Source of the DNA: Hymenobacter rubripertinctus
GTDB taxonomy: Bacteria > Bacteroidota > Bacteroidia > Cytophagales > Hymenobacteraceae
Direction of reading: 5' to 3'
Assembly: GCF_003583925.1 (NCBI RefSeq)
Contig: NZ_QYCN01000008.1
Span: 1 to 64,000, forward strand
DNA: 64,000 nucleotides
This document shows, piece after piece, positions 5,020-47,864 of this stretch. Positions within the stretch are counted from its first letter, which is position 1; each line of letters begins with the position of its first letter. The translations under genes were made by a program, and so were the position numbers. Below the pieces are notes generated by a model. It was not told the origin of the DNA. It ran no database searches and saw only the letters and a list, made by a program, of their open reading frames with translations.

Positions 5020-8157
<3,138 letters not shown>

Positions 8158-32850: not shown

Positions 32851-33879
32851 CTAGCCGGCCACCGCCATGATTTTGGCCACCTGCGCCGGGGGCAGGTCCA
32901 GCCAGTCGAGGGCGTTGCCGCTCAGCAGGCGGGCCTGCACGTCGGCGGGGTAGCTCAGGGAGCGGATGAGCTGGCCGGGCACGGCCTCGCCCAGCGGGAA
33001 CGGGTAATCGGTGCCCAGGGCCACTTTATCGGCCCCCAGCGTGCGTACCAGAAAGTCGAGGGCCTGGGGGTCGTGCACGAGCGAATCGACCCAGAAGCGG
33101 CCCAGGTACTCGCGGGGGTTGCGGGCGTTATCCACGGCGCACAGGTCGGGGCGCACCTGCCAGCCGTGCTCGATGCGGCCAATGGTAGCCGGAAACGAGC
33201 CCCCCCCGTGGGCTACGGCCACCCGCAGCTTCGGCAGCCGCTCCAGTACGCCCCCGAAAATGAGCGAGCACAAGGCCCGGCTGCTCTCGGCGGGCATGCC
33301 CACCAGCCAGGGCAGCCAGTATTTGGGCATCTGGCCCTGGCCCATCATGTCCCAGGGATGCACGAACACGCACATACCCAGCTCCTCGGCGGCCTGAAAC
33401 ACCGGGAACAGCTCCGGGGCATCCAGGTTCCAGTCGTTGACGTGGGAGCCGATCTGGACGCCCGCCAGCCCGAGCTGGTGGCACCGTTCCAGTTCCCGTA
33501 CGGCCAGGTCGGGGGCCTGCAGTGGCAGCGTGCCCAGGCCCACGAACCGGCCGGGGTAGCGCTGCACCACGCCCGCCAGGTGGTCGTTGAGCAGCTGGCT
33601 CAGATCCAGCACGTCCAGGGGTTTGGCCCAGTAGCTGAACATCACGGGCACCGTGCTCAGCACCTGCACCTGGGCCCCGAACTGGTCGTACTCGCGCATT
33701 CGCACGGCGGGGTCCCAGCAGTTGTCCTGGATTTCGCGGAAGAACTTGTCGTCCTGCATCATGCGGGCGCAGCAGGGCCGGTGATGGTCGAGCCGGATGA
33801 AGCCCCCGTAGCCGTACCGTTCCCGCAAATCGGGCCACCGCTCGGGCAGGATGTGGGTATGGATGTCGATGGTGAGCAC
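32851..33879 (-). CDS. 2-amino-3-carboxymuconate-6-semialdehyde decarboxylase (ACMSD)
   Basis: Zn-dependent amidohydrolase-fold decarboxylase that diverts ACMS away from quinolinate/NAD synthesis towards catabolism. 342 residues: metal-binding His7-x-His9 ([14 protein letters not shown]), further ligand His in [11 protein letters not shown], the [10 protein letters not shown] segment and the catalytic Asp of [11 protein letters not shown]. All are diagnostic of ACMSD. It starts at a GTG codon. The substrate is made by the 3-hydroxyanthranilate dioxygenase encoded just upstream on the same strand. Confidence 0.95.
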
Positions 33880-33920: not shown

Positions 33921-34041
33921 GTAAAAGAAGGTGTCATCCTGAGCGGAGCGAAGGATCTTCGCACGCTTGAACGGCTATAACAACGACTCTTTCCAACGTG
34001 CGAAGATCCTTCGCGCCGCTCAGCATGACACGTTCTTTTAC
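33921..34041. repeat. 45-bp inverted repeat with REP-like core
   Basis: Arms 33921-33965 and 33997-34041 pair with three mismatches around a 31-nt spacer. The left arm contains CATCCTGAGCGGAGCGAAGG, also present in the 51-bp palindrome at 39997-40111. It lies between the dioxygenase and ACMSD genes, which read in the same direction. Confidence 0.85.
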
Positions 34042-39967: not shown

Positions 39968-39998
39968 GAAGTGAGAAGTGAGAAGTGAGAAGTGAGAA
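39957..39998. repeat. 7-bp tandem repeat GTGAGAA, six units
   Basis: Six perfect GTGAGAA units begin inside the glycosyltransferase gene (they encode its last two residues and stop codon) and run directly into the 51-bp palindrome. Confidence 0.9.
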
Positions 39999-40111
39999 AA
40001 GGTACGTCATCCTGAGCGGAGCGAAGGACCTTATCACGTCGAAACGAGTCGTTGTTACGGTCGTTTCGACGTGATAAGGTCCTTCGCTCCGCTCAGGATG
40101 ACGTACCTTTT
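39997..40111. terminator. 51-bp perfect inverted repeat
   Basis: Arms 39997-40047 and 40061-40111 are exact reverse complements with a 13-nt loop, starting AAAA and ending TTTT. The longest perfect palindrome in the window. It includes the CATCCTGAGCGGAGCGAAGG core shared with 33921-34041. It sits between codirectional genes, so it could terminate the glycosyltransferase transcript. Confidence 0.9.
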
Positions 40112-40142: not shown

Positions 40143-41588
40143 ATGCTTCAGCTCCAAAACTTCATCGGCGGCCAACTGGTGCCACCCGCCGCCGACCGCT
40201 ACCTGCCGCTGCTGGAACCGGCCACCGGGCAGGTATTTGGGCAGGTGCCCGACTCCGACGCGGCCGACGTGGAGGCCGCCGTGCAAGCCGCCGAAGCCGC
40301 GCTGCCGGCCTGGCGGGCGCTGCCGGCCGAGGAGCGGGGCCGGCGGCTGGTGCGCCTGGCCGGGCTGATTGAGGAAAACCTCGAACCCCTGGCCCGGGCC
40401 GAAAGCCAGGACAACGGCAAGCCCCTGCGCCTGGCCCGTACCCTGGATATCCCAAGGGCGGCCAGCAACTTCGCCTTTTTCGGCACGGCGGCCGGGCATT
40501 TCGCCACCGAAGCGCACGTGCAGGACGGCGTGGCGGTCAACTACACCGTGCGGCATCCACTGGGCGTAGTGGCCTGTATTTCGCCCTGGAACCTGCCGCT
40601 GTACCTGTTCACCTGGAAAATTGCGCCCGCCCTGGCCGTGGGCTGCTGCGTGGTGGCCAAGCCGTCGGAGCTGACGCCCTACACGGCTTTCCTGCTGAGC
40701 GAATTGGTGCAACAGGCGGGCCTGCCGGCGGGGGTGCTCAACATTGTGCACGGCACCGGCCCCCGCGCCGGGCAGGCCCTGGTGGAACACCCGGGCATCC
40801 GGGCCATCAGCTTCACGGGCGGCACGGCTACCGGGGCGCACATTGCCCGCACGGCGGCCCCGCAGTTCAAAAAACTGTCGCTGGAGCTGGGCGGCAAAAA
40901 CCCTAACCTGATTTTTGCCGACTGCGACCTGGCCGACGCCGTGCGCACCAGCGTGCGCAGCAGCTTCGCCAACCAGGGCCAGATCTGCCTCTGCGGCTCC
41001 CGCATTTTTGTGGAGCGGAGCATCTATGAAGCTTTCAAAACCGAATTCCTGGCCCAGGTGGCGGCCCTCACCGTGGGCGACCCGCTTGAGGAAGCCACCC
41101 ACCAGGGTGCTTTGGTGAGCGAGGCCCACCTGCAAAAGGTGCTGCGCTACATCGAGCTGGCCCACGAGGAGGGCGGACGGCTTTTGGCCGGCGGGCAGCG
41201 CGTGTACCTGCCGGGCCGCTGCGCCGGGGGCTACTTTCTGCAACCCACCGTGTTCGAGGGCCTCAGCCCCGACTGCCGGGTGAACCAGGAGGAAATCTTC
41301 GGGCCGGTGGTTACGCTCACGCCCTTCGATACCGAAGCCGAGGTGCTGGCCTGGGCCAACGGCACCGACTACGGTCTCTCGGCCACCCTCTGGACCCGCG
41401 ACCTGCACCGGGCCCACCGCCTGGCCCACCAGCTGCACGCCGGCGTGGTGTGGGTGAACACCTGGCTGCACCGCGACCTGCGCACGCCTTTTGGCGGCAT
41501 GAAGAACTCCGGCGTAGGCCGCGAGGGCGGGCTGGAAGCCCTGCGCTTCTTCACCGAAGCCCAGAACGTGTGCCTGAAGCTGGGCTGA
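40143..41588 (+). CDS. 2-aminomuconate/2-hydroxymuconate-semialdehyde-type aldehyde dehydrogenase
   Basis: 481 residues, NAD-dependent ALDH. SPWNLPLYLFTWKIAPALA, AKPSELTP, FTGGTATG for NAD, catalytic Glu248 (LSLELGGKNPN) and nucleophile Cys282 (NQGQICLCGSR). The overall pattern, with GGMKNSGVGREGG at the C-terminus, is that of ALDH8A1/AmnC enzymes oxidising 2-aminomuconate semialdehyde, the product of ACMSD encoded in this region. ATG 40143 is chosen because the earlier frame runs through the palindrome. A copy of its 3-prime end recurs at 43714-43815. Confidence 0.9.
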   Translation: MLQLQNFIGGQLVPPAADRYLPLLEPATGQVFGQVPDSDAADVEAAVQAAEAALPAWRALPAEERGRRLVRLAGLIEENLEPLARAESQDNGKPLRLARTLDIPRAASNFAFFGTAAGHFATEAHVQDGVAVNYTVRHPLGVVACISPWNLPLYLFTWKIAPALAVGCCVVAKPSELTPYTAFLLSELVQQAGLPAGVLNIVHGTGPRAGQALVEHPGIRAISFTGGTATGAHIARTAAPQFKKLSLELGGKNPNLIFADCDLADAVRTSVRSSFANQGQICLCGSRIFVERSIYEAFKTEFLAQVAALTVGDPLEEATHQGALVSEAHLQKVLRYIELAHEEGGRLLAGGQRVYLPGRCAGGYFLQPTVFEGLSPDCRVNQEEIFGPVVTLTPFDTEAEVLAWANGTDYGLSATLWTRDLHRAHRLAHQLHAGVVWVNTWLHRDLRTPFGGMKNSGVGREGGLEALRFFTEAQNVCLKLG

Positions 41589-41599
41589 CGGACCCGCAC

Positions 41600-41665
41600 A
41601 GCCTCCGGGTGCTGCTGCGGGCCGTGGCGCCGAAGCCCAACGGGGTGTTCTCCCGCCTCACCCCC
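41600..41665 (+). pseudogene. remnant of a glycosyltransferase C-terminus
   Basis: Eleven bases after the dehydrogenase stop the DNA encodes SLRVLLRAVAPKPNGVFSRL then TP. This matches 16 of 22 residues of the intact glycosyltransferase at 43891-44631 (SLRVLPLAVELKPNVVFSRL then NP, about 44509-44575). There is no start and no further homology on either side. With the dehydrogenase remnant at 43714 it marks a decayed duplication. Confidence 0.75.
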
Positions 41666-41709
41666 CTTCCCATCCACCGGGACCATACTCCAGACCCCGC
41701 GTCGTCTCG

Positions 41710-43443
41710 TTAGGGCATCACCGTCAGGTGGCGGTAGCTTTGGGTTGGCCCCTGCTGCACCCGCACCTGATAAACGCCGGCGGGCAGGGCGCGCAGGTCG
41801 AGCGGGCCGGGGCCGGGCAGCGCTTGCGTGCGCACGAGCCGGCCCAGCATGTCGAACAGCTGCACCTGGGCCGGAGCCGCCCGGGCCAGGCCCACGGTCA
41901 CCGTCTGGCGGGCGGGGTTGGGGTAGAGGGCCAGCCCCGGCACCGCCTGAGCCGCCCGCACGGCCAGTACCGGCGCACTGGTGCGGGCCACGAACATACC
42001 CCACAGGTCGGGGGCCGTGGCAGACCGGGTCCCGAAGGTGAACGTACCCGTCCCGTAGAGCCAGCTAGCCACGGTGGCCTGCCCCAACCCATCGACGGCT
42101 AAACGCGGCTGGCGGGCAATGGCCGGGCCGCTGGCCAGCCAGCCCTGCAAGGCCCGGCCCGTGGAGTCGAGGCGCAGCACGCTCACCTGTTGCTGGGCAC
42201 CGGCGGGGGCCGTGAGCTGCACCGCTCCCCAGCGCACCGCATTGACCAGCGTGACGATGTACAGGTCTTCGTGGGGGCCGAGGGCCAGGCCCCTGGGGCT
42301 GAGCGTGCCGGTCGCGCTGCGGCGGATAGTGCCCTCGGGCGTGAGCCGCAGCACGAACGCATTGTCGTTGTTGGGATTGGGCACGGTCTGCGTGCCCAGC
42401 GTCAGCGGGTTGGTGCTCATGCCGCCCAGCGCGTACACGTGACCGGCGGCACTCACTTTCACGTCGTCGAAGTAATTGCCCGCTGTAGGGGTAGCCAGGG
42501 TGCCGACCAGCACCCACTCCGGTATGTTGGCCGAGGAAATCTTTACTAGAAACCCTGTGCTTCGAGGGGTATTAGTAGGCCCGGCTACGGGTGGCAGATT
42601 ACCAAACAACAAGGTTGCGTCGAAAACCCAGCCAGCCAAATACACGTCACCCGTCGGAGAAAGGGCCAAGCCATTGTAAAAACGCGCATCGTCGTCGCCC
42701 TTGGGCTGTTGGCCCGCCCAGGAGCCAGCCACCTGCCCGGCCGCGTTCACGCGCACCAGAAAAGGCTGCTTGGTATAGGCCACGGGCGAGGTATAGGTTT
42801 GCGTGCCTACCGTCAGGGAGCCGCGGTAGGTGCCAAACACCACGCTGTTGCCGGCCGCATCCACCGCCAGCTTCCAGTTGCCCTGGCCATCCGACACCCC
42901 GTAGCCAGCTTCTACCACATCACTGGCCCACTGCACTATCCCGGCCGCACTCACCTTGAGCAGGAAAGCCCGAGGCCCCGGCGTTGCCACGACTAGGGCT
43001 CCCCCTATCACCAGCCCGCGGTTGCAGTAGCCCAGCGCGTAGAGGTTGCCCGCCGCGTCGGCGGCCACGTCCACCACCCGCCCCCCCTGGCTTTCCAGGT
43101 TCAGCGTCCAGTTGAGCTGCCCATCGGCCCGGTACTGGGCCAAAAAACCGTTGGTGTACGTAAAGCCCGTTCGGGGGTCGGGGGGGCGGTTGGTGCCCAG
43201 CACCAGCGGGGAGCCCGCAAACCGCAGGTCGGGGTCGAACTCCCCGCCAATCGTCACGTTGCCGGCCGCATCGGCCGCTACCCCGTTCACGAAGCCCGTG
43301 CGGTTGCTACCCGCACTCGGGCCGAGTTGGGTAGCCCAGGCCCAGTCAGACGTCGCCCCAACTTGCGCCCAACTCGGCGCGGGGCCGGCCAGCAGCCCCA
43401 GCAGTAGCAGTAGTAACAAAAAGCGGGGTAGCATATTGCGCAT
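41710..43443 (-). CDS. secreted beta-propeller-like protein with T9SS sorting domain
   Basis: 577 residues. Signal peptide MRNMLPRFLLLLLLLGLLAG...SWA, then repeated SBBP-type units (GVAADAAGNVTIGGEF, DVAADAAGNLYALGY, KLAVDAAGNSVVFGTY, VKVSAAGHVYALGG). The C-terminal type A sorting domain (LALYPNPARQTVTVGL, LRALPAGVYQVRVQ) routes it through the type IX system to the cell surface. Role unknown. The gene sits exactly between the two remnants of the dehydrogenase-glycosyltransferase duplication and reads opposite to them. Confidence 0.9.
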   Translation of the reverse strand: MRNMLPRFLLLLLLLGLLAGPAPSWAQVGATSDWAWATQLGPSAGSNRTGFVNGVAADAAGNVTIGGEFDPDLRFAGSPLVLGTNRPPDPRTGFTYTNGFLAQYRADGQLNWTLNLESQGGRVVDVAADAAGNLYALGYCNRGLVIGGALVVATPGPRAFLLKVSAAGIVQWASDVVEAGYGVSDGQGNWKLAVDAAGNSVVFGTYRGSLTVGTQTYTSPVAYTKQPFLVRVNAAGQVAGSWAGQQPKGDDDARFYNGLALSPTGDVYLAGWVFDATLLFGNLPPVAGPTNTPRSTGFLVKISSANIPEWVLVGTLATPTAGNYFDDVKVSAAGHVYALGGMSTNPLTLGTQTVPNPNNDNAFVLRLTPEGTIRRSATGTLSPRGLALGPHEDLYIVTLVNAVRWGAVQLTAPAGAQQQVSVLRLDSTGRALQGWLASGPAIARQPRLAVDGLGQATVASWLYGTGTFTFGTRSATAPDLWGMFVARTSAPVLAVRAAQAVPGLALYPNPARQTVTVGLARAAPAQVQLFDMLGRLVRTQALPGPGPLDLRALPAGVYQVRVQQGPTQSYRHLTVMP

Positions 43444-43713
43444 AGAGGTAGGTAGTTGAGTGGAAGAACCGATAGTGCGGGGCGAATATACCCTTGGCAC
43501 CCGACCTCTTGCAACGCTTGGCAAAATGAACGTTCGTCCTCTTGTTTTTCTCCCCCTACCCTTGCGGCCCCGAACCAGGGAAAATACCCTTCCCCCAGAC
43601 GCGCGAGTCTGCGCCGCTCCCCCCTGACCGGTGTGTGGCAGTTGAAATCCGCCGCGCCCGCCGGGGCCGCAAAAAAGCCGCAACCCCCGACACCGTAGTA
43701 GCCGACGCCCTCG

Positions 43714-43815
43714 CCCTTCAGCGGCATGAAGACCTCCGGCGTGGGCCGCGAAGGTGGCCTGGAGGCCCTGCGCTTCTTCACCGAGCCCCGGAACGTGGGC
43801 CTGAAAATGGGCTGA
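43714..43815 (+). pseudogene. remnant of an aldehyde-dehydrogenase C-terminus
   Basis: 33 codons plus TGA encode PFSGMKTSGVGREGGLEALR then FFTEPRNVGLKMG, nearly the end of the dehydrogenase at 40143-41588 (PFGGMKNSGVGREGGLEALR...). Similarity continues past the stop (CTGACGGACCCGCAC in both). Upstream similarity stops abruptly. It lies 76 bp before the intact glycosyltransferase. Confidence 0.9.
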
Positions 43816-43857
43816 CGGACCCGCACGGCGCGGGCACTCCGGCGGCCCGCTTCCGCT

Positions 43858-43865
43858 TATCTTTG
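43858..43865 (+). promoter_or_regulatory. -7 element of the glycosyltransferase at 43891
   Basis: TATCTTTG, a perfect TAnnTTTG, 25 nt upstream of the GTG start. Confidence 0.55.
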
Positions 43866-43890
43866 CTGTATCCGCGTCTTTTCCTCTTCC

Positions 43891-44631
43891 GTGTCCGTGC
43901 CCCTGCCACCTGCCCAACTGGCTCTTGTTCTGCCCTGCTACCATCCGCCCCTGAGCTGGGCCGGCAATATTCTCACTAGTCTGGCGAAGCTGGAAGCCCT
44001 GCTGCCCCCCGCCACAACCGTGCACCTGTACGTGGTGAACGACGGCACCGAAACGGGCGTGACGCCGGCCGACATTGCGTTGCTGACCCAGGCGCTGCCG
44101 GGTGCTTTCACTTACCTGGCTTACCCCCTCAACCAGGGCAAGGGCCATGCCCTGCGCACCGGCATTGCCCGGGTGCGGGAGCCCTACTGCATCTTCACCG
44201 ACATCGACTTTCCTTACCAGGAAACCAGCGTGGCGGCCCTCTACGCCCTGTTGCAAACCGGGGCCGACGTGGCCGTGGGCGTGCGCGACGACGGGTACTA
44301 CGCCCAGATTCCGCCGGCCCGGCGGCGGGTTTCGCGCCTGCTGCGCCGCCTCACCAAGCACGTACTGCGCCTGCCCGTCGATGACACCCAGTGCGGCCTG
44401 AAAGGCTTCAACGAAGCCGGCCGCCGCCTGTTTCTGCGCACCACCACCAAGCGCTACCTCTTCGATCTGGAACTGCTGTTTCTGGCAGCACGCCAGGGCT
44501 CCCTCCGGGTGTTGCCGCTAGCCGTGGAGCTCAAGCCCAACGTAGTCTTTTCCCGCCTCAACCCCCGGATTCTGCTCACCGAGAGCCTGAATTTCATCCG
44601 GATTCTGGGCCGGCGGCTGGAGCAGGAGTAG
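43891..44631 (+). CDS. family-2 glycosyltransferase
   Basis: 246 residues, GTG start. GT-A fold: LALVLPCYHPPLSWAGNILT, VVNDGTETGVTP, LNQGKGHALRTGI and the metal motif CIFTDIDFPYQETSV. It also has DDTQCGLKGFN and RYLFDLELLFLA, the pattern of dolichyl-phosphate-glucose-type transferases. No C-terminal membrane span, unlike the one at 39023. A short piece of a second copy of its C-terminus lies at 41600-41665. It converges on the next gene with only 8 bp between stops. Confidence 0.92.
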   Translation: MSVPLPPAQLALVLPCYHPPLSWAGNILTSLAKLEALLPPATTVHLYVVNDGTETGVTPADIALLTQALPGAFTYLAYPLNQGKGHALRTGIARVREPYCIFTDIDFPYQETSVAALYALLQTGADVAVGVRDDGYYAQIPPARRRVSRLLRRLTKHVLRLPVDDTQCGLKGFNEAGRRLFLRTTTKRYLFDLELLFLAARQGSLRVLPLAVELKPNVVFSRLNPRILLTESLNFIRILGRRLEQE

Positions 44632-46610: not shown

Positions 46611-47864
46611 TTAACGGGCGACTTCTACACGGCATAGTCGCCGTTGTCCGCCGGCGCGCAATTCGGCGAAGTAGACGCCCGTTGCCGGGAAACGTTGCAG
46701 GTCCAGCCACTGCTCGTGGCGGCCGGCGGTTTGGGTGCTGCCCTGTTGCAGTTCCTGCACCACCCGCCCCTGGATGTCCAGAATGCGTAACCAGACCGCT
46801 TCCTGCACCGGCAGCTGGTAGGCCAGCACCCCCGATACCGTCACTGGGTTCGGATAGCAGGGTTCCAGCACCAGCTTGCTCGCGTCGGCTTCGTCCTCGT
46901 CCGACGTGGCGGCCGGAGCGGGAGCAGTGGGCCGCAGCACCGTGCCCGTCTGGTGCTTCACCTGCGCGTACTGGCGGCCGATAAACTTCAGATGCTTTTC
47001 GTCCCAGGCACCCGGATACCCGGCGGCATCCATCGTCTGGCAGTAGGCCCGGTACACCTGCATTTGCCAGCTCTGCTGGGTTACCGTCAGGTTCGTCGGG
47101 TTGCGCATGATGGTGTAGCCGGCGTACTGAAAATAGCGGCACTCCACCTGCCTGGTTGCCTCCAGGGCCAGCAGTCCAGCCAACCGATGGTCGGAATGGT
47201 CGATGGGATTGACCCGCTCGTCAGGTTGGGGGCAATGAATGGTCAGCCGCCCCGCCTCCACGGCCTCGTAGGCCAGCAGCGCCCGGATGGTCTGGCTGAG
47301 TTCTTCCCAGGAAGTATACGCCGCGCCACCATCCAGCGGCTTGATAGCTTTTCCGGCCTCCCGCAGCTGTTTCAGGCTTTGGCCGCCACCGCGCACGAGG
47401 CCCTTGCCATCTACCCCGCCGTCGGGCAGGTGCAGGTAGCAGGAAATGGTATTCTGGTAACGGTGCGTTTCGATGCTATGGCCGTTTACCACGATGGTTG
47501 CGGCGGTCGAAACAACAGCTCCCGGGGTGGCCGTCGGACCCAGGTCCACGGCCTTGCGCACCGACGCCAGATGCCCGGCTTCGCGGCCGCGCCAATACGT
47601 ATCCGATGGTTCGTTGGCCTGCCCGCCGGTCAGGCAGATCAGCACCACCTTACGGCGGCTATGCTGAGCTTCCGCGCAAACGGCCGCCCCCATAAACAAC
47701 TGCCAGTCATCCGGGTGAGCGGTAATCACAACCGTCCATTTGGTAGCAGGAGACTGGCCTGCACTGGCCCCGCTTCCAGCACCGGAACCAGTTTGAGCGC
47801 GGCTGCTCAGCGGACACAGGCCAACCAGGCCAAGCAGGAAAACCCAGAGTAGCAATGCGCGCAT
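46611..47864 (-). CDS. PIG-L family deacetylase with T9SS sorting domain
   Basis: 417 residues. Signal peptide MRALLLWVFLLGLVGLC...SRAQ. A LmbE/PIG-L domain (about 42-290) starts with the Zn-binding TAHPDDWQLFMGAAV and contains the HSDHRLAG His-bearing motif, so hydrolysis of an N-acetyl group from a sugar is likely. A C-terminal type A sorting domain (LEPCYPNPVTVSGVLAY, FPATGVYFAELRAGGQRRLC) exports it by T9SS to the surface. A cell-surface deacetylase fits the surrounding glycan genes. Confidence 0.92.
   Translation of the reverse strand: MRALLLWVFLLGLVGLCPLSSRAQTGSGAGSGASAGQSPATKWTVVITAHPDDWQLFMGAAVCAEAQHSRRKVVLICLTGGQANEPSDTYWRGREAGHLASVRKAVDLGPTATPGAVVSTAATIVVNGHSIETHRYQNTISCYLHLPDGGVDGKGLVRGGGQSLKQLREAGKAIKPLDGGAAYTSWEELSQTIRALLAYEAVEAGRLTIHCPQPDERVNPIDHSDHRLAGLLALEATRQVECRYFQYAGYTIMRNPTNLTVTQQSWQMQVYRAYCQTMDAAGYPGAWDEKHLKFIGRQYAQVKHQTGTVLRPTAPAPAATSDEDEADASKLVLEPCYPNPVTVSGVLAYQLPVQEAVWLRILDIQGRVVQELQQGSTQTAGRHEQWLDLQRFPATGVYFAELRAGGQRRLCRVEVAR

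Follow-up and report, generated by a model that had tools for sequence, protein, structure and literature searches.

A two-copy tract around a T9SS cargo gene in Hymenobacter rubripertinctus: the possible scar of a duplicating insertion

Organization of the locus

We analysed a window of 64,000 nucleotides from Hymenobacter rubripertinctus, in which an intact aldehyde dehydrogenase gene (ALDH) and an intact glycosyltransferase gene (GT) stand on either side of a T9SS cargo gene of opposite orientation. The ALDH gene (40143–41588, plus strand) has 481 codons, and its product matches PF00171 with 568.6 bits and shares 93% amino-acid identity with its Hymenobacter piscis counterpart, which occupies the same site. 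Its best NCBIfam match, TIGR03216 (2-hydroxymuconic semialdehyde dehydrogenase), scores 565.5 bits and misses the equivalog cut-off of 693.25, which leaves this more specific assignment unsupported. The GT gene (43891–44631, plus strand) encodes a family 2 glycosyltransferase of 246 codons (PF00535, 43.6 bits), to which no other match in the same genome exceeded 33%. The kynurenine link of the neighbourhood is based on a nearby 3-HAO gene; the gene at 32851–33879, which we take to be ACMSD, had no match among the NCBIfam profiles. A palindromic repeat lies between GT2a and ALDH (39997–40111) and again at 33928–34029, with 79 strand-wise matches at about 40 places in the genome (most match both strands). 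It also occurs upstream of ALDH in H. piscis and by its look belongs to a REP- or MITE-like family.

The space between the two intact genes is filled by partial copies of both, all on the plus strand, and by an insert. The left copy of a shared tract begins within ALDH itself, where repeat search and alignment delimit the tail, the stop codon and 13 post-stop bases (41485–41601), and it continues with a remnant of GT codons 204–226 (41602–41666), most of the GT body being gone. An insert of 2,048 bp (41667–43714), missing at the H. piscis locus, separates this copy from the right one. It holds the uninterrupted cargo gene of 577 codons (41710–43443, minus strand), with an SBBP beta-propeller repeat and a Por_Secre_tail domain, and a remnant of rpsP, the gene of 30S ribosomal protein S16, comprising the promoter region, the leader and the first ~26 codons (43550–43714, plus strand). 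The right copy opens with the last ~33 ALDH codons, the stop codon and 13 post-stop bases (43715–43829). The ALDH-GT intergenic stretch follows (43830–43890), which by eye resembles its H. piscis counterpart in a shared TCCGG-GGCCCGCT and contains TATCTTTG at 43858, where TAnnTTTG is presumably the Bacteroidota -7 element. The intact GT comes next.

Two copies of one tract

The first-pass annotation had described a remnant of the ALDH C-terminus in front of GT, with similar DNA past its stop, and the alignments bear this out. With blastn within the window, 41485–41624 and 43712–43849 are 82.9% identical over 140 columns (E 9.5e-35), and their local alignment score of 160 lies far above the maximum of 37 among 1,000 random window placements, from which those starting in 38–46 kb were dropped. 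A repeat search returned the same pair as 123 nt at 85% (41480–41602 and 43707–43829). Behind the stop codon, 11 of 13 bases agree between the two tails, as against 4 of 13 between either tail and H. piscis. The annotation was also right about a 22-codon remnant of the GT tail at 41600, 11 bp behind the ALDH stop (41588), with 16 of 22 residues identical: at the DNA level, 41602–41666 and 44502–44566 are 81.5% identical over 65 bases (E 2e-11), with a local alignment score of 70 against a maximum of 34 under the same null.

The ends of the tract meet the boundaries of the insert, give or take a few bases. The left copy spans 41485–41666, with an internal deletion, and GT similarity ends at 41666, where the insert begins. 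The right copy spans 43715–44566 and ends inside GT at codon 226, 20 codons before the GT stop. At its left end, rpsP similarity stops at about 43714 (seven of ten alignments end at 43710–43714 and three at 43728) just where ALDH similarity starts (43703–43712, by alignment). Because the tract ends coincide with the insert ends, a single tract may explain the partial genes on both sides. An H. piscis-like intergenic stretch and then the intact GT come after the right ALDH tail, so this junction looks like the native ALDH-GT junction.

Comparison with H. piscis bears on the age of the duplication. Over the coding bases of the ALDH tails, left and right agree at 81 of 93 positions, left and H. 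piscis at 88, and right and H. piscis at 85; taken by themselves, these bases would also fit a duplication of greater age, or a copy acquired from a sister species. The GT remnant is closest to the GT of its own genome (53 of 65 bases), H. piscis GT coming second (49 of 65), and the two intact GT genes agree at 51 of 65. The GT remnant (53 versus 51 of 65) and the post-stop agreement (11 of 13 versus 4 of 13) together suggest a lineage-specific duplication, which looks to have followed the split from H. piscis and to have been followed by decay. Bases without a match in any orthologue number 4 of 90 in the right ALDH tail and 4 of 65 in the GT remnant, whereas there are none in the left ALDH (0 of 90), in the intact GT (0 of 65) or in H. 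piscis for either gene. The counts refer to 29 ALDH loci (77 other genomes had a match) and 26 GT loci, with 31 loci for rpsP. Since such private bases occur in the tails and not in the intact copies, the sequences indicate that both tails are decaying.

Contents of the insert

An opposite-strand T9SS propeller gene had been recognized in the gap from the translation, and the profile searches agree. The C-terminal sorting domain of the product exceeds the cut-offs of TIGR04183 (46.2 bits versus 23) and PF18962 (37.3 versus 27), the SBBP match is likewise over its cut-off, and the start of the protein appears signal-peptide-like by eye. Base composition (GC 0.68, GC3 0.815) lies inside the range of the neighbouring genes and does not stand out. 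Among 204 family genomes, the best relative found, in genome G099, has 39% identity, and matches at E up to 1e-25 occur in nine genomes including the own one; these searches scored the best 11 or best 6 candidates per genome, so that misses are possible. The G099 relative lies on a different contig (C73) from the rpsP match (C10), and no cargo-rpsP neighbourhood was therefore seen there; a cargo gene adjoining rpsP was seen in no sampled genome. The flanks of the cargo gene matched those of this nearest relative no better than 300 random placements did, and a plasmid search yielded one record at 25.9%. Ten other open reading frames of at least 90 amino acids lie in or overlap the insert, with zero Pfam matches. 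No further copy of the insert was listed in the genome, where the rpsP locus and short matches alone appeared among the 40 of 292 candidates scored. In a genus-wide DNA search with the GT remnant and its 3' flank, those matches listed beyond the window were short, mostly 20–45 bases.

The rpsP head (43550–43714) is a third remnant, which the first-pass annotation had missed. When the insert was searched in its own genome, the sole strong place besides itself was a match of 43595–43714 to G000:C58:70472–70589 (76%, E 1e-14; 40 of 292 candidates scored), which is the start of rpsP, a gene assigned to S16 by NF011094 over the cut-off. In the genus, 43444–43722 found matches at E up to 0.001 in 79 of 120 genomes, the own one included, a few of them over short stretches only. 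The best match among those scored was the rpsP of G082 (E 3e-32), as against 1e-15 for the own rpsP in that search, in which the best 6 candidates were scored per genome and misses are possible. The best matches, such as that in G082, extend upstream to about 43550, across the TACCTTTG box. This box is also present in front of the rpsP of H. rubripertinctus and H. piscis, from which a GGGAAA leader stretch is absent; that stretch is found in 7 of the 8 best genomes and, in an altered form, in the window. The position of the start codon is now GTG (43635).

We compared the remnant at 20 columns fixed differently between these eight genomes and the pair of H. rubripertinctus and H. piscis. At 12 columns it sides with the eight, at 3 with the own pair and at 5 with neither, and from the start codon on the counts are 4, 0 and 3. 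The comparison is biased towards the eight, since they were selected for matching best, and leader gaps make up some of the 20 columns. Eight of 81 bases of the head occur in no orthologue, a figure that stands without an intact control. In a tree of 29 genus loci (best first, among matches given a locus) with the own and H. piscis rpsP, the remnant fell near other clades on a long branch (0.68), a position that received no support, and an AU test did not reject its grouping with the own and H. piscis sequences (p 0.09). On these comparisons, the rpsP head is likely of foreign origin, from another Hymenobacter.

Two side observations concern this head. The severed S16 frame stays open over 43542–43979, through the out-of-frame ALDH tail into GT; the chimeric open reading frame has an in-frame GTG at 43635, appears chance-like and has no Pfam match. 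In G083 (5372–7823 of its rpsP locus), a divergent gene lies directly upstream of rpsP, and thus the site appears to tolerate gene turnover; the other seven of the eight compared genomes have a co-oriented gene there instead, presumably desaturase-like.

The empty site and the right-hand flank

The first-pass annotation had supposed that ALDH and GT were once adjacent and had pointed to related genomes as the place to look for an uninterrupted pair; such a pair exists. H. piscis NST-14 (G054; NZ_JAHHZN010000005.1) carries a single-copy empty site, and its gene order is that of the window on both sides: ACMSD, HAO, SDR, g35654, big36414, GT2a, ALDH, GT, g44640, g47961 and DPP4. Its ALDH and GT are less than 100 bp apart, and the cargo gene and the remnants are absent. 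A GT match was present in 26 other genomes of the genus, and in four of these ALDH and GT are adjacent, namely H. piscis and the more distant G081, G052 and G032, in which the pair likewise stands without a cargo gene. Unlike the window, the H. piscis locus lacks g46611, the gene at 46611–47864. This gene lies beside the g44640 relative in G081, G052, G053, G041 and G063 and nearby in G032, and the end of its protein looks by eye like a sorting domain.

Identity to H. piscis at four-fold sites differs between the two sides of the insert. The left genes reach 0.70–0.83, with ALDH at 0.76, whereas GT, g44640 and g47961 on the right fall to 0.62, 0.50 and 0.61, before DPP4 returns to 0.80. At these sites g44640 is nearer G081 (0.57) than H. 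piscis (0.50); at the protein level, GT, g44640 and g47961 each come closest to H. piscis when H. piscis, G081 and G041 are compared. Because these three genes are more diverged from H. piscis than the left genes and DPP4, the segment 43891–49445 might have undergone a foreign DNA exchange, to the right of the insert, in one of the two lineages.

Discussion

We consider it somewhat more probable than not that one additive (duplicating) insertion, and a single deletion after it, left the scar seen at this locus. The ancestor would have carried GT2a, ALDH and GT beside kynurenine-type genes, as H. piscis does. A tract T of about 850 bp, which reaches from ALDH codon ~450 into GT as far as codon 226 (43715–44566, 852 bp, in the right copy), would have undergone a tandem duplication with a 2.05-kb insert F (41667–43714) at the junction, giving the arrangement ALDH-GT' - F - 'ALDH-GT. 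F would have consisted of the cargo gene on the minus strand and the truncated rpsP head on the plus strand, probably from another Hymenobacter, although its parts could have come separately rather than as one foreign block. The left copy of T would later have lost 672 bp, the counterpart of 43830–44501, and with it most of the truncated GT. Since ALDH remained complete on the left and GT on the right, the insertion would have broken no gene, and the partial copies would therefore have been free to decay. The first-pass proposal that the cargo gene arrived by recombination is supported, because the H. piscis site does not have this gene and the search of 204 family genomes found no close relative. 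The duplication may well have arisen when a molecule joining F to the local chromosomal fragment T was integrated, either by unequal crossing-over or in a Campbell-like manner; natural transformation would be one setting for this. The ComEC and DprA families are present in the genome of H. rubripertinctus but are widespread, with matches in 10 and 11, respectively, of the 14 control genomes.

The duplicating insertion and the deletion would together cover all three remnants. The first-pass annotation had instead proposed a tandem duplication of the full ALDH-GT unit, after which one copy lost most of its GT and the other most of its ALDH, with the cargo gene entering the gap. A duplication is indeed the simplest source of the tails, both of which lie in the correct order and orientation, and the adjacent ALDH-GT pair in relatives supplies the unit. 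A complete second unit is not needed, however, and is less economical: besides the duplication and a GT deletion, the left GT end and the right ALDH front would have to be replaced, and the replacement that brought the rpsP head of the insert would have to end almost exactly where the ALDH tail begins, give or take a few bases. Nor did the searches of the gap turn up anything resembling the lost 1.35 kb of ALDH. We regard the full-unit duplication as rather unlikely. An exchange with a sister species, which would have brought in the DNA to one side of the insert, appears to us more doubtful still. In one version, an ALDH-deleted GT-cargo arrangement would have entered through upstream homology and been joined illegitimately within the resident ALDH tail, by homology-facilitated illegitimate recombination; in another, the right-hand stretch of ALDH tail, GT and flank would be incoming. 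That both ALDH tails resemble H. piscis more than they resemble one another, and that the right genes have the lower four-fold-site identity, would suit such an exchange. Against it, the left ALDH has diverged from H. piscis as much as its left neighbours have, the two tails have post-stop bases in common that H. piscis does not have, and by their proteins the three diverged genes still come closest to H. piscis out of the three genomes.

The insert is framed by directly repeated ALDH 3' ends, much as islands that integrate at gene ends are bracketed by their att repeats, so delivery of the cargo gene by a mobile element, be it a transposon, an insertion sequence or such an island, deserves mention. 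The cargo protein has no recombinase match, and none came from Pfam for the other ten reading frames. The insert ends are not paired by inverted repeats, the nearest pair (41777–41791 and 43650–43664, 15 nt, 87%) being internal, and the ends of an element would not be expected to carry part of GT or the head of rpsP. We rejected a transposable element or integrative island, since a recombinase family and terminal inverted repeats are both absent, and consider delivery by any mobile element highly improbable.

A duplicating insertion of the kind preferred here has laboratory counterparts. Niaudet and co-workers are said to have obtained, in 1985, foreign DNA between two target copies (T-F-T) from heterologous DNA joined to chromosomal fragments, and Mannarelli and Lacks reportedly described T-F-T structures from ectopic integration in 1984. 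Such structures arise in laboratory transformation. Those were laboratory constructs, whereas the present locus would be a decayed natural scar with a deletion in one T. In Streptococcus pneumoniae, transformation with partly homologous DNA is reported to lead to tandem duplication by unequal crossing-over with a new junction, and the duplicated genes of the merodiploids, in duplications of about 100–900 kb, are free to change (Johnston et al. 2013, PMC3784515). The mechanism in H. rubripertinctus may be similar; here the tract is about 0.85 kb and other DNA lies at the junction. Homology-facilitated illegitimate recombination (PMC3240628) imports DNA by one homologous anchor and one illegitimate join; by comparison, both tails at this locus would require a donor already without most of GT. 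Titles and abstract openings of the literature on Hymenobacter gene fragments and horizontal transfer contained nothing on this locus, and searches on Hymenobacter pseudogenes with tandem duplication and on ectopic integration found nothing.

In summary, the locus looks like a fresh and well-preserved example of a known, ordinary kind of genome rearrangement, clean in its detail. It can be read as a fossil of how a secreted-protein gene enters a chromosome and breaks nothing, the duplication keeping the neighbours whole while the partial copies decay. Three gene fragments at one site, together with the empty site of a sister species, make the steps testable. As a long shot, Hymenobacter may spread T9SS cargo genes via short additive integrations of foreign DNA joined to a local fragment, leaving duplicated tails and severed housekeeping heads as scars, with this locus as the type case; the severed rpsP promoter and start may for a time even have driven GT or the chimeric S16-headed frame. 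If such scars recur, they would serve as markers of recent cargo-gene uptake in T9SS bacteria.
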